Assembly (NCBI GenBank): GCA_002077065.1
Contig: NAJO01000042.1
Location: 124,001 to 188,000 of the forward strand
Direction of reading: 5' to 3'
DNA from: Cryoendolithus antarcticus
Taxonomy: Eukaryota > Ascomycota > Dothideomycetes > Cladosporiales > Cladosporiaceae
Length of the DNA stretch: 64,000 nt
The translations under genes and the position numbers were made by a program. Positions 48,323 through 57,208 of the stretch are shown here, piece by piece. Numbering within the stretch: position 1 is the stretch's first letter; each line of letters opens with the position of its first letter. The notes below the pieces were generated by a model. It ran no database searches, was not told where the DNA came from, and saw only the letters and a program-made list of their open reading frames with translations.

Positions 48323-51300
48323 TCAGTTCTTACGAGCAAATAAGCGACCCATACTGCGCCGCCAGGATCGGCCTTGTTCTCTCTCAATCTGAAAGCCCGT
48401 ATTCCTCTCTTTTCCGAAATGCCACTCCTCGTTCGCTCGACTTGGACCAACATTGGCAGGCCTCCGTCCGTCATCAGATTCCACATAGTCGTCACTGCTA
48501 CCAACAGGCGAAGGCGATCCATCGCTATCTCTAAGCTGATAAGGATAGACATCCTCCCCATGCATCTCCGAGTCTTGCAACCCACATCGTTGCGCGTCGT
48601 CAAAACTACCGCGCACCGACGTGTCTACCGTCTTCTCGAAAGCGTAGGCCTCGCTGGACGCTGGTGCTTCGGCTGGATCGAATGGAAGAGGCGGCGAGAT
48701 GCCACGCAGTGACACTTGCATCGTTCTTGTGAACTGATACCCTTCGTTGGCTACCCGCAAGTCTGACATCATGAAGTCCGGAGAAATACCACGCACCGAC
48801 GACTCGGTCGTTTTCTCGAACATGAACGAGTCGTCGGCTCGAGATATCCACCGGCTTTCACGAGCATCGATTCGCGCGTCTTGTGAAATGCCGCGTACCG
48901 CAGTCGTCCCAGTACCTTCGAACGAGTACGGCTCTCCGAAGCGGTACATGTCCGGGTCCATGTTGCGCCTTCCACGCCCGCGTTGCGAAGAAGCGCGTCG
49001 ATCTGTGTACCGTGAACTAAGCGTAGAGCCAAATTCGTACTCGCCACGGTGGCGGCGGTTCATCTCATGCGCTTCGCGAGGGTCGAGATACAGATCTAGG
49101 TCCGGAGAAGACGTGGCTGTCGCACGGACAGTCATGCGTGCAAGTTGCTTGGCTGTCACCTCCAGTGTATTGAACATGATAGGCTCCGCGGGGAGCACAT
49201 GGCTGAGTAGGAGCGCTTTTGGTGGTTGAGGTATGATGAGCGCAGGATCAAGAGCCACGGGTCTGGGCACCGGTGGGGCGGCCAGTTCCCCGCTTCCAGC
49301 ATTTGTGGACGCAGTATTGGAGTTCGGCATTGAGTCCACGGGCGCGGGAGTCATGGTCCCCTGGCGGGTCTCATCGGTCCACTCGATGTCTCTCCTTGTG
49401 CGAGTAACGCTCGAAGGATGATCGTCGCCAAGAACTGCACATGTGGCGATAGCGCAATCATGGTTCAGTGTATATGCTTCAGTCTTCTGGCCAGCATCGT
49501 GCAAAATCAGGGCGAGATTCGCCTTGCTGGTCAAAACATCCGGATGCTGGCCGCCCAAGATCTTCTCGCGGGATCGCAGAGCTGCTCGTGCCATACTCTC
49601 AGCTTCTGTGAGATCTCCTCTGAACCGCAGCACGCCAGCGAGACTGTCGAGACTGGTCAAGGTGTTCAGGTGTTCTTCACCCAGAACCTCCCTGCGCTTT
49701 TCGAAAGCTGATCTAAACAGTACTTCTGCTTCATCATGGCGCTCGCTCGCCCAGTAAGACACTGCCAAGTTGTGCATGTTACTGATGGTGTGTGGATGGT
49801 CTGCGCCCAGACTTGCTTGTCGAGCATATAGAATTTCTCGATGTAGCTCGGCAGCAACATCATGCTTGTCCTGATAAGCGTACAAGACGGCCAGGTTGTT
49901 CTTGCTGAGGAGCGTGTTCGGATGAGTGTTACCTTGCGCGCTCTCGAATCTGCGTAGTAGCAGCCGATGGAGACGTTCCGCCTCCCGCCATCTGCCTTGG
50001 GAGGTGTACACCAGCGCGAGATCGTTGGTGGCATCGAGGGTGTAGAAATGCGTTTCGCCCAAGGAGGCGCGCATGATCCCCAATAGATCCTCGCCGTTCT
50101 TCTGCGCAGCTCTGTAGTTCCCTAGACTCCAATCTGCTCGCACTGTCAAAGCAGTACTTCGGAGAGTCGCCTGATGTTGGGTACCCAATGTGTGTGCCCG
50201 TACCAGCTGAGATTCCTCTGCCATACGCAAGCCATCAGATGGCGATCCTCGCTGCAGGGCGTATTCAGCCGCTCGAAACAGTACAGCTGCCCACACTATG
50301 TTCGCCTGCCGTTGCGCGAAGTTCATAGTCATCGCAGATTTGACATGGGGAAATAACACCTCACACTCAGACCAGTACTCGTACAGCCCGTCCCGAGGAA
50401 ATGCGTCGTATAACCTGTCCACAAATACCGACTTCCAGTATTCTTCCTTCGCTTCAGACCTCAACCAGGTTTGTGCAGCCTTTTGTACAAGTCGGTGCAT
50501 ATCAAATGTTGTAGCCACAGCCGTGGTCACGGAGATGAAGCTGTAGTCCCTCAGCATGGTAATATCGGTCTCGAATCTATCATCAACTATCGTAGGCCGC
50601 CCGTAGTTGAGTGGCGATACCTCGTGAAGCGCGCTCTCAGGTATGGCCTGTCGATCGAAGAAGCACATCAAGGCCAACAGATCCGCCGCCGAAGAGCGCA
50701 AGGTGCGAATGTGATCGAAGGATATCTGCCAGGCCTTGAAAATCGCGTTTTCGGACTCTGGATGACGTCGTAGATCCCGCATACCATGTGTTAGCAGATT
50801 GGACGATGTTTCGTCGAGAGCTGTCAGGGTTTCAAGGTAAGCTGCTACGGAGAACCTTGGCGCTCTCTGTCTGATGTACGCAGCTGCTTGCGTCAATGCG
50901 AGAGGCATGTAATCCAGCGCAACTGCAAGCTGATCGATCTTGTCATCTGTACTCGCGGAACCCAGTCGAGTAGTAAGCAATATACGGGCGTCTTTTGCCT
51001 CCATCGGTCCGACCTCAATGATCTCCTCAATGTCCACCAGATCTAGTGCAGTGTCCCGATCCCTACTTGTCACAACGACACAGCCTCTGGTGCAATTGGA
51101 CAGTGCCGTCATGAAATCTGCGACGACAGAGCTCCCACCTGCGCCGTCGTAGTCATGTTCACACCTCAGCAAGGTCCGATCGTCGAAATTGTCGATAATC
51201 AGTAACCAATTGCCGTACTCGGCGGCAGTCAACCAATTCTGTAGAAGTACGAACATGTTCGCGTCAGGACGCCGGCGGCCGGGCACCCTGAGCTTCGCAA

Positions 51301-51782
51301 CGAGTTCTTTGACATTCTGTTCGAAGCGAGCAAAGGTGCTCGCATGGATCCATAGTACGAAAGTCGTAGGATCCTGGCCTCTCAAACGATAGGCATACTC
51401 CAGTGCGAGCTGGGACTTCCTGCTTTGTATTAGTGGTTTACGCATAGTCACTGTCACGCAGCGAGACTTACCCTGCGCCGCCTAGCCCGCAAAGCGCAAC
51501 TCTAGCATTTGGCTTGGCTAGCTCCTCGAGCTGTGCGTATAGCAGTGTGCGATGCACGTAAGCTGGGTCACGGCGGTATGGCAATATGGCGCATGGTGCT
51601 GGTGGTGACTCGGGTTGCTCTGCAATGATGCGATCAGCGTCGCTATGACAGCGAGATCACTGTACCGATGGTGGAATACCTGGCGCCGGGTAGACGTTGT
51701 TATTCGAGACGCCATAAAGTGTCCCAATCTGTGAGCCTGAATTCCTGTCGCCGAACGTGTTGATCTGCTGAACGGCCGCCAT
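48323..51782 (-). CDS. NLR-like NB-ARC/TPR protein with N-terminal PP (RHIM-like) amyloid motif
   Basis: Fungal STAND/NLR receptor, predicted to switch on cell death through amyloid templating. Three exons (minus): 51782-51680, 51619-51472 and 51419-48323, introns 60 and 52 nt. They total 3348 nt in phase, 1115 residues. Exon 1 encodes only a 34-residue head with the motif core NTFGDRNSGSQIGTLYG (residues 8-24). The NB-ARC domain follows: PYRRDPAYVHR, P-loop VALCGLGGAGKSQLALEYAY (Lys85), Walker B WLLIIDNFDD (about 155-164), sensor VVVTSRDRD, YMPLALTQAAAYI, and the MHD-like FDMHRLVQKA (about 389). About six kinesin-light-chain-type TPRs span 500-760 (HPNTLLSKNNLAVLYAYQDK, HPHTISNMHNLAVSYWASER, HPDVLTSKANLALILHDAGQ). 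The tail has a degenerate repeat (877-1026) and a possible third motif copy (about 1082-1104). It is divergent from the effector gene at 52031. The ORF from 51457 alone would miss motif and P-loop. Confidence 0.88.
48360..48430 (-). other. Possible degenerate third PP-like copy at the NLR C-terminus
   Basis: The segment HFGKERNTGFQIEREQG aligns with TFGDRNSGSQIGTLYG of the same protein: F-G, R-N-[ST]-G, Q-I and a trailing G are all kept, with one inserted residue. The core Gly is replaced by Glu, so if real it is probably inactive. Confidence 0.4.
48593..49042 (-). repeat. Degenerate tandem repeat in the NLR C-terminal tail
   Basis: Four clear copies spaced about 29-34 residues apart: PYSFEGTGTTAVRGIS, SFMFEKTTESSVRGISP, GYQFTRTMQVSLRGISP and AYAFEKTVDTSVRGSF. 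A fainter one is at EYEFGSTLSSRYTDR. Consensus is [YFM]-x-F-E-K-T-x-x-[TS]-[SA]-[VL]-R-G-[IS]-S, separated by acidic, disordered spacers. I do not recognise it as a named motif. Confidence 0.75.
51696..51761 (-). other. N-terminal PP/RHIM-like amyloid motif of the NLR
   Basis: Residues 8-29 encoded by exon 1. The order is N-x-F-G, then NSG-x-Q-I-G, then G-V/I and an Asn cluster. The Q-I-G core resembles RHIM ([IV]-Q-[IV]-G) and the fungal PP motif. It aligns with the C-terminal motif of the adjacent effector (52829-52894). Confidence 0.78.
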
Positions 51783-52030
51783 GTGAGTAGAGGAATCCTT
51801 GGAGCGTAGGACATGTCGCAAGGATGGAGTCGGTCAGTAGGTACAAGCTCGCAGGGCTGTGCAGCATGTCACCATCTCAGGTGAGAGGTGCGGCCTCAGA
51901 TGCAGGTGTGGCGTGAGTGCTAAGGCCCAGACTAACGCCAGTGGAGGCGGTGCTCCTAACGTCGTGGTATACATTTCGAGAGAAGCTCTGATCCTCAAAG
52001 CAGTCCTCCCTCGCAGCACCGAAGTTTAAT
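51783..52030. promoter_or_regulatory. Shared bidirectional promoter of the NLR/effector pair
   Basis: 248 bp between the two divergent start codons. A compact head-to-head layout suggests co-regulation. No specific binding site was recognised. Confidence 0.6.
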
Positions 52031-52918
52031 ATGGCGGAAGGTCTAGGTATCGCAGCCGCTGTGGTCGGAATTGCAGGAGCCGCGCTAGAAGTGAGTAAGG
52101 GCCTTTACGAAGACCTAAACGCCATCTCCAACGCGCCAAAGACACTGCAAGCACTCAAAGCAGATATCTCAACCTTGACCACGAGCGTTGAAGCGCTTGA
52201 AACAATCGAAGCACCTGACTGGCAGCAGCTGGGAACGCAAGCAGCAGACCACACTAAGTCTATGCTTCGGCAGTGTCAAATAGCCTGCACAACATTCCGC
52301 AGCGACCTTGCTCGATGGACAAAACACTCGCCGCCGAATCAGCTGGCGGCCCGTGATCGGGTTGTACTTGGATTCTATAGGCAAAAGGAGATCGCGTCTG
52401 TCTCTCAGCAGGTTCAGAACTGGAAATTAAGCTTCACAAGCATCGCTAGCTTAGCGGCAGTGTAGGTCTTGACGTATATCAACAACGACAACACAACCTA
52501 TACTGACATCACTTCCAGGAAGAGCTCACTTCGCAATGGTCGCACGAGTGAGAGCATCAACACCACGCTTGTAGCCTTCCGCGAGGAGGCAGCTACGGCC
52601 AACACTCAGATGCAAGAAAGGATTGCAACTATTACCACTACCCAAACCGAGCTCAGCCAGGTGCACCGAGACGATCTCGACGAGTCCGACATTCAAGACG
52701 CAGACGCTACCCTCGCACTCCTCACAATCGAGCAGGATACACTAAAGTCGTCGGTGTCCTTACTCCAAGATCTGCTGACCAAGTCTGAGGAGACAGCCAA
52801 GTCGCAGGGACTGACAGTCACGCAGCACAACGTGTTCGGAGCGCATAACAGCGGTGTGCAGGTTGGACAGAGCTCCGGGGCTATTACCAACAACACAACT
52901 GCTCTGCCAGCCAAGTAA
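52031..52918 (+). CDS. HeLo-like/SesA-type cell-death effector with C-terminal PP amyloid motif
   Basis: Predicted membrane-targeting cell-death executor partnered with the adjacent NLR. Exons 52031-52461 and 52519-52918, intron 57 nt (donor GTAGGT, acceptor TTCCAG), in phase, 276 residues. Both exons happen to lie in the same frame, separated by a TAG inside the intron, so they would be misread as two ORFs. The N-terminus MAEGLGIAAAVVGIAGAALE then VSKGLYEDLNAISNAPKTLQ is characteristic of the fungal HeLo-like/SesA N-terminal domain: hydrophobic first helix, Ala/Gly-rich, then helical. The rest is helical, with long Thr/Gln/Asp-rich coiled coils (TNTQMQERIATITTTQTEL-like, LLTIEQDTLKSSVSLLQDLL). 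The end carries HNVFGAHNSGVQVGQSSGAI, the amyloid motif. No transmembrane helix apart from the hydrophobic N-terminal one. Domain family moderately sure; motif match strong. Confidence 0.8.
52829..52894 (+). other. C-terminal PP/RHIM-like amyloid motif of the effector
   Basis: Residues 248-269: N-V-F-G, NSG-V-Q-V-G, then S-G-A-I and an N-N pair. Compared with the NLR motif, N, F-G, N-S-G, Q-[IV]-G, the following G and the Asn pair are shared. The V-Q-V-G core fits the RHIM pattern. Confidence 0.8.
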
Positions 52919-55969: not shown

Positions 55970-57208
55970 TCAAAGCTTGCCCTTTTGTCGAGAGCTTGAT
56001 GACGATGATGCAGGTGTACGAGTTGAAGTCGGGGTACGCGAGGAGGATGCCGGACGCTCTGCAGGTGCGGCCGAGCGCGAATTGTGAGCTTGCTGAGCGA
56101 AGAAGTCTGCATAGCCCTTAGCCCTTCGCTGCTTGCGGCACGTGATCTTGTCGGCACAAGTGCAATGACCTGTGGCGTCGGCGTGCGGACAGATGTCAGC
56201 ATCACCACGAGGTCCGGCCATAGGATCACCAATAGGCAAAGCACGAATGGGATCTCTCTGATCTTGATCTTCAGCGATTCCGCTACGCATGTCTTGGATG
56301 TACTGTTTGTACTGATCAGGACTGCAATTAGCCCTGACCCACTGGCTTGAGCGCGAGCCAATGCTGTACCAGGCATTGTCGTTCTGCTGTTTCGAGCGCT
56401 CGAGACCAGACTTCTCGCGGTTGCCGTTGGCCTGTATTTTCACAGAGTCATGGTCGAAGTCTAACTTCAAGCGGTCTTCAACGTTCTCATTGACAGTCTG
56501 TTGTTCGCGTCGACTGTCTTTCTCGTTGCGGATCTTCCGATGACGCGCACACATCACGTCGACCGTGCAAGGTATAACGGAGCAGCGTTCGTCGTCCGAA
56601 GACCCACGCTTCTTCGCCCTGCCCGAGCTACCAGAGTCCTGTGAGCCTCGCTTGGCCGGGACGCTGGCCCTGATCTCGGGTGACGAGTGGTGACTACTTA
56701 AGGGCGTGTAGAGCTGGCTACCACACTCGCTGACAGTAGGAGATGCGGTTGAGGACGCCGAGGAAGCGTTGAATTGCGCGCTCGTCGATGACGGCAATGA
56801 TGGCGCGATCGGTACGGTTCTGATGGAGAGTGAACCTCGGCCAGCTTGGTCGATTTGACCGATCGCTGCTCTTCGTAGCCGAAAAGCGTCCGGGCATGCA
56901 GCTGCCAATGTCTCTCGGTTAAGAGTGGTATAGCCCGAGGATGGCAAGATGTGCGGCGGAAACACAGATCGAATGGGTGGAAGTGTGTTGTTCGAACTGT
57001 GTGGAAGTCAGCTTGGAACCTCGTGGGCAGATGGGTAATGCGGCACGCACCTCGATGACGATCGGTTGTCCTGTTGGTGATAGTGCTGGGTCATCGTAAT
57101 GGCGCTGTATGAGTTGATGGGTAGTGGGCTGCCGGCTGAGACACGCACGTGCTTAGATCGACTAGGTGTTCCTGGTGTTGCGAGTAATGGAGTGTAGTAA
57201 CTAGACAA
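55970..57208 (-). CDS. Hypothetical Ser-rich protein with C-terminal Cys/His cluster
   Basis: Unrecognised. Two exons, 57208-57051 and 56996-55970, with a 54-nt GTGCGT...CACAG intron; splicing gives 1185 nt in phase, 394 residues. The N-terminus (MSSYYTPLLATPGTPSRSKH) and the junction segment (RSSSSNNTLPPIRSVFPP) are disordered and Pro/Ser-rich. A short ordered stretch (TTLNRETLAAACPDAFRLRR) follows, then a long low-complexity region with a basic patch (SGRAKKRGSSDDERCS). Charged helices include VEDRLKLDFDHDSVKIQ and QYIQDMRSGIAEDQDQ. Near the C-terminus, ICPHADATGHCTCADKITCR carries four Cys and two His that could bind zinc; the end is Ser/Thr-rich. Basic and disordered character suggests a nuclear protein. 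Probably lineage-restricted. Confidence 0.6.

Follow-up and report, generated by a model that had tools for sequence, protein, structure and literature searches.

Does the fungus Cryoendolithus antarcticus possess an amyloid-based switch linking a receptor to a membrane-damaging partner? The question is raised by two adjacent, divergently transcribed genes (positions 48,323 to 52,918) in a 64,000-nucleotide stretch of contig NAJO01000042.1 (assembly GCA_002077065.1, positions 124,001 to 188,000 of the forward strand; 55.0% GC), called here the window. One gene, on the minus strand, encodes a nucleotide-binding oligomerization domain-like receptor (NLR) and the other, on the plus strand, a HeLo-like effector. 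Their ATGs lie at 51782 and 52031, which confirms the spacing of 248 bp given in the initial annotation of this DNA. That annotation had also interpreted the genes as a signalling pair communicating through matching PP motifs. This interpretation is supported: in domain order, in where the motifs and introns sit and in the adjacency of the genes, the pair conforms to the PP NLR/HELLP system, and it very likely constitutes a two-gene PP-amyloid signalosome like PNT1/HELLP.

The NLR is predicted to be 1116 residues long once two introns are removed. Its first exon (51680–51782, minus strand, as are all following NLR features) is only 103 bp long, 34 codons plus 1 nt, and holds the N-terminal PP motif. 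The proposal that the NLR has such a hidden exon holds, with both ATG and donor site conserved in a second copy of the pair on another contig, C69, and the case illustrates how plain open reading frame (ORF) calling misses motifs hidden by a short first exon. Intron 1 (51620–51679; 60 bp, GT..AG, branch CTGAT) is followed by exon 2 (51472–51619), which encodes the start of the nucleotide-binding domain and the first part of the Walker A motif, GLGGAGKS. This motif is interrupted by the 52 bp intron 2 (51420–51471), and exon 3 (48323–51419) includes the remainder of the NB-ARC-like domain, DUF7779, the tetratricopeptide repeats (TPRs) and a C-terminal tail. The effector, with 276 predicted residues after removal of one intron, has its HeLo-like domain in exon 1 (52031–52461, plus strand) and, in exon 2 (52519–52918, plus strand), two long helices followed by a motif-bearing tail. 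The intervening intron (52462–52518, plus strand; 57 bp, GT..AG, branch CTGAC) is exactly that named initially and occurs at the same place in the C69 copy.

The predicted splice structures of both genes are supported indirectly, by comparison of the copies. Each copy has three GT..AG introns at equivalent places and all six carry a CTRAY branch site 11–15 nt before the 3′ end, while CTRAY occurs 8–30 nt before the end in 6.5% of 5000 random 55-nt stretches of the window. Identity between copies is 0.48 for NLR intron 1 and 0.60 for the effector intron versus 0.77–0.85 for the exons; unlike these two, NLR intron 2 (0.77) is not lower than the exons.

The two PP (RHIM-like; RIP homotypic interaction motif) sequences are located where they had been reported, at the N-terminus of the NLR and the C-terminus of the effector. 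NLR exon 1 encodes MAAVQQINTFGDRNSGSQIGTLYGVSNNN, with the motif at residues 8–29 of the joined protein (51696–51761, minus strand; core G-S-Q-I-G), and the effector C-terminus reads NVFGAHNSGVQVGQSSGAITNN, with the motif at residues 248–269 (52829–52894, plus strand; core G-V-Q-V-G). They are identical in 11 of 25 columns (44%), inside the range of 32–48% published for PP motifs of the Podospora anserina and Chaetomium globosum clusters (PMC7885112). Their best ungapped alignment (31 residues, 14 identities, score 63) was not reached by any of 2000 shuffles (best shuffle 39), and for each of the four NLR-effector pairings across the two copies 0/2000 composition-preserving shuffles attained the observed score. 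When the 25-residue NLR motif was compared with all 1595 stop-free segments of at least 25 residues in the six frames of the window, it scored 132 against itself, the effector C-terminus came second at 55 and the third segment scored 38. Nine of the 25 columns, N, Q and G residues among them, are invariant across the four motif copies, and the NLR motif of both copies includes the central Q with flanking G.

The core of the PP motif has been given as NxGxQxGxN (PMC9815663). The C69 NLR fits this in full (N-Y-G-T-Q-I-G-T-N) and the other three copies each lack one N. The same source reports PP motifs in 296 fungal NLR sequences, mostly at positions 5–9, with similar C-terminal stretches in neighbouring proteins for 37 sequences (PMC9815663). 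The window NLR motif, beginning at residue 8, lies within these positions. Walker A begins at residue 79 and the motif thus precedes the nucleotide-binding domain. The motifs of the pair appear to fit the PP rather than the HET-s type; no HET-s family is among the Pfam matches listed for either protein, and such models easily miss short motifs. A second candidate motif at the C-terminus of the window NLR (HFGKERNTGFQIE), of faint likeness, was rejected: it is absent from the C69 NLR and the region scarcely aligns.

Pfam profiles bear out the assignment of the effector, with two families above cut-off. PF17111 (PigL_N in the Pfam copy used) scores 55.8 bits with exon 1 alone and 58.2 bits with the joined C69 effector (cut-off 27.2), and PF17046 (Ses_B), which we take to be a profile of the PP motif, scores 24.2 bits at the C-terminus of the window effector (cut-off 23.2). 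The structure model shows a predicted four-helix bundle in the exon 1 domain, then helices, then a tail of low confidence carrying the motif. Foldseek returned no match for this model at E ≤ 0.001 in the PDB or a viral library. The top PDB fold matches are to helical bundles of no relation, such as IncA, those to MLKL being compatible but not decisive, and a PDB sequence search with the effector gave no match at E ≤ 10. HeLo-like domains are described as related to the four-helix domain of MLKL (PMC7885112).

The nucleotide-binding domain of the NLR appears, from its profile scores, to be a divergent NB-ARC. The two copies score 11.5 and 16.6 bits, below the cut-off of 23.5, and a paralogue 41% identical to the NLR scores 27.5 bits, above it. 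DUF7779 (33.2 bits, cut-off 27) and TPRs (TPR_12, E 2.9e-43; TPR_10, E 1.5e-42) are also found. The TPR array (49430–50185, minus strand; approximate coordinates) comprises about six 42-residue units, picked by eye, which are at most 16/42 identical to one another. A PDB sequence search with the first 403 NLR residues gave two matches, of unrelated names (E 0.17 and 0.32).

The closest described pair is the two-gene PP cluster of P. anserina. Its receptor PNT1 combines NB-ARC and TPRs and forms a prion through its first 31 residues, and HELLP, 271 residues long, is HeLo-like and carries its PP motif at the C-terminus (PMC7885112). The window pair shares with this system (the [pi] prion) adjacent genes, an NLR in which a PP motif at the N-terminus is followed by TPRs and by what appears to be a divergent form of the NB-ARC domain before them, and a HeLo-like effector that ends in a PP-motif tail. 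Gene structure also agrees closely. The introns of hellp (nt 429–475) and pnt1 (nt 95–148) were placed with prediction programs together with expressed sequence tags and RNA-Seq (PMC7885112): the hellp intron follows nt 428 and that of the window effector nt 431, both in phase 2, while the pnt1 intron follows nt 94 and NLR intron 1 nt 103, both in phase 1. In contrast, pnt1 has a single intron and the second NLR intron of the window is absent from it. The effectors are similar in size (276 and 271 residues), whereas the window NLR is longer than P. anserina PNT1 (1116 versus 971 residues), and TPR number, which varies for pnt1 between P. anserina strains (PMC7885112), is equal in the two copies compared here. 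Since intron positions, phases, motif and domains agree together, common descent with pnt1-hellp is the simplest reading.

More distant systems share some of these features. The RHIM of human RIP1/RIP3 has the G-phi-Q-phi-G core in common with the pair, as in the G-V-Q-V-G of the window effector. In mammalian necroptosis, where MLKL is the effector, kinases take the place of the NLR, and it is these kinases that bear the motif rather than the membrane-damaging protein (PMC5485727). HET-S/NWD2 and HELLF/FNT1 follow the same logic, with the motif N-terminal on the NLR and C-terminal on the effector, although the motif itself differs.

By analogy with what has been described in P. anserina and C. 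globosum, we infer amyloid seeding, oligomerisation, membrane attack and an immune role for the window pair. The NB-ARC-like/TPR receptor would be kept inactive until a ligand is sensed and would then oligomerise, gathering several N-terminal PP motifs. These clustered motifs would fold into a cross-beta amyloid seed on which the corresponding motif at the C-terminal end of the adjacent effector is templated. The four-helix domain of this HeLo-like protein would relocate to the membrane and permeabilise it, and the cell would die. A shared motif alone does not demonstrate amyloid formation or seeding, and the genes and motif could be as described with the motif acting as an ordinary pairing tag, by which the NLR recruits the effector stoichiometrically without a self-propagating amyloid. 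The computed results do not separate seeding from simple pairing, and where G-phi-Q-phi-G calls for its first hydrophobic residue, two of the four motif copies have S or T and one has P. Nevertheless, we consider simple pairing unlikely: prion formation and cross-seeding have been described for the nearest known pairs (PMC7885112), and the nine invariant columns, with their N, Q and G residues, fit a cross-beta stack.

The second copy allows the signalosome reading to be weighed further. In the genome searched (47 Mb, 149 contigs), contig C69 repeats the block of an MTR4-like helicase, the NLR and effector, and an Anp1-family gene, the three aligned pieces being 91%, 81% and 87.5% identical in nucleotides, in block order. 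Both genes are open, introns are at the same places, and both motifs and the layout are retained, with 246 bp between the ATGs (L003 6258 and 6505). The C69 NLR N-terminus reads MAAVQQRNTFGDTNYGTQIGTNYGVSNNN and the effector motif NVFGAYSSGPQVGQNSGNITNN; the core of the latter, G-P-Q-V-G, includes a proline which may weaken the motif. Between copies, NLR exon 1 differs at 16.0 of 23.5 synonymous sites and 8.0 of 78.5 replacement sites (replacement divergence, dN, 0.110; ratio to synonymous divergence, dN/dS, 0.06), these counts being small and dS near saturation. Because replacement differences are few relative to synonymous ones, this exon appears to be translated and under constraint. The NLR body (dN 0.091, dN/dS 0.16) and the effector as a whole (dN/dS 0.11) give similarly low ratios. 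The evidence for conservation consists of this one second copy and the published gene structure.

The same comparison bears on whether a formerly working pair is in decay, in one or both copies, with the motifs a residue of ancestry. Several observations point in this direction and count against a functional PP pair. The last 26 codons of the effector, which include most of the motif, have a dN of 0.244, compared with 0.083 and 0.078 in the remainder of the protein, a threefold difference. The C69 effector motif reaches only 14.6 bits with PF17046, below the cut-off of 23.2, and has the proline in its core. The 3′ end of the NLR (48323–48706, minus strand) aligns poorly, with 171/308 positions identical, 86 gap columns and a tail dN of 0.30. 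Decay is nonetheless very doubtful: frames are open and introns are GT..AG in both copies, dN/dS is far below 1 for NLR exon 1, the NLR body, the whole effector and the effector motif end (0.155), and dN of NLR exon 1 is near that of the NLR body. On these substitution counts the effector motif end is constrained, though less tightly than the domain. That two N-, G-, Q- and S-rich ends should be alike by chance can hardly be credited in view of the shuffles in all four pairings, the match retained in the diverged copy, the PF17046 score above cut-off and introns positioned as in pnt1-hellp.

The initial annotation had presented the pair as a two-gene version without a lipase. The absence of an adjoining lipase stands, the direct neighbours being the MTR4- and Anp1-family genes, but such a version is not new, since pnt1-hellp is itself a two-gene cluster (PMC7885112). 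The C. globosum cluster CgPNT1/CgHELLP/CgSBP shares the PP motif, HeLo-like effector and NLR (PMC7885112) and has a third gene, for a PP lipase; motif searches of the C. antarcticus genome found none. No lipase family was detected among the 10 window ORFs scanned besides the NLR (from 22 ORFs of at least 220 residues), two of the 10 being without any match. Over the genome, PF17046 gave two matches, both of them the effector copies, and thus no third partner. The pattern N-x-G-x-Q-[IV]-G-x-N also gave two, the C69 NLR and one on contig C95 without matching context, as judged by eye. The shorter N-x-G-x-Q-[IV]-G gave 23 matches versus 9 for a reversed control: three are in the genes of the pair, 19 are without similar flanks (by eye) and one (L069) gave no frame under the position filter. 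A lipase with a diverged motif could escape this search because the patterns miss the C69 effector itself (S-S-G-P-Q-V-G).

What is new is the host and the coexistence of two PP pairs that have diverged within a single genome, and only this duplication is unusual. Pair-specific co-divergence of the motifs was considered and rejected, with scores of 63 and 65 within copies versus 57 and 65 across. Cross-talk between copies would be expected since motif scores show no same-copy preference and PP motifs of P. anserina and C. globosum cross-seed at 36% identity (PMC7885112). A more specific scenario, which we regard as rather unlikely, is that two PP signalosomes, having diverged in separate parents, were brought together in the cytoplasm of a hybrid with a duplicated genome. 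The receptors would seed either effector, but the C69 effector, whose core is G-P-Q-V-G, would be a poor converter that slows the window copy or serves as a decoy for it. If this is true, the HET-s/HET-S asymmetry would have a naturally occurring parallel inside one nucleus. In any case, the two diverged copies provide a natural test of how much PP motif change is tolerated before two amyloid pathways stop talking.

Judged by title, none of the papers listed in searches of the open-licence PMC literature on Hortaea or Dothideomycetes concerns such a system in this lineage. For extremophile Dothideomycetes, fungi of restrictive niches have been suggested to hold few NLRs, and the available part of that source names no PP pair (PMC11412873). 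Within these listings this is a gap in print and not a new kind of system, and the pair is a well-supported addition to the PP/RHIM-like NLR pairs. As its genes are built almost like pnt1 and hellp of P. anserina, the death switch would be old within the filamentous ascomycetes.

The intergenic region common to both genes (51783–52030, 248 bp) is identical to the C69 copy at 162/245 aligned bases; a sigma-70 and terminator scan, which is not designed for fungi, found nothing in it. The NLR tail carries loose [YF]xF(E)xTxxxSVRGIS repeats (48590–49045, minus strand; approximate coordinates), four to five in number and spaced 29–37 residues apart, whose self-match score was reached by 1/200 tail shuffles. 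The C69 copy retains the first repeats but not the final part. The 3′ end of the NLR may have been replaced or be evolving fast, because it is poorly alignable while the flanking genes stay 87.5–91% identical.

Elsewhere in the genome, PF17111 has four far stronger matches of 96–151 bits (C19:3758-4428, C120:47779-48446, C44:10023-10614 and C15:4302-4896; L008-L011), those on C44 and C15 being interrupted by stops. Contig C120 also has an NLR-like stretch at 56833, within 10 kb of two PF17111 places. A candidate HET-s-type motif in an NLR paralogue was rejected, since it reaches 15.3 bits against a cut-off of 24.3, and over the genome this motif gave seven matches, none above cut-off, with 4 of 14 control genomes matching too. 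The paralogous NLR pair, at C89:156012 on and C92:133535 on (L036, L035, L049), is 38–41% identical in the nucleotide-binding domain. The short N-terminal segments of these NLRs differ, SGNSQLHIGNNINNY on C89 and SSSGDSRTHIGDIYNN on C92, so that related receptors seem to bear different signalling tags.

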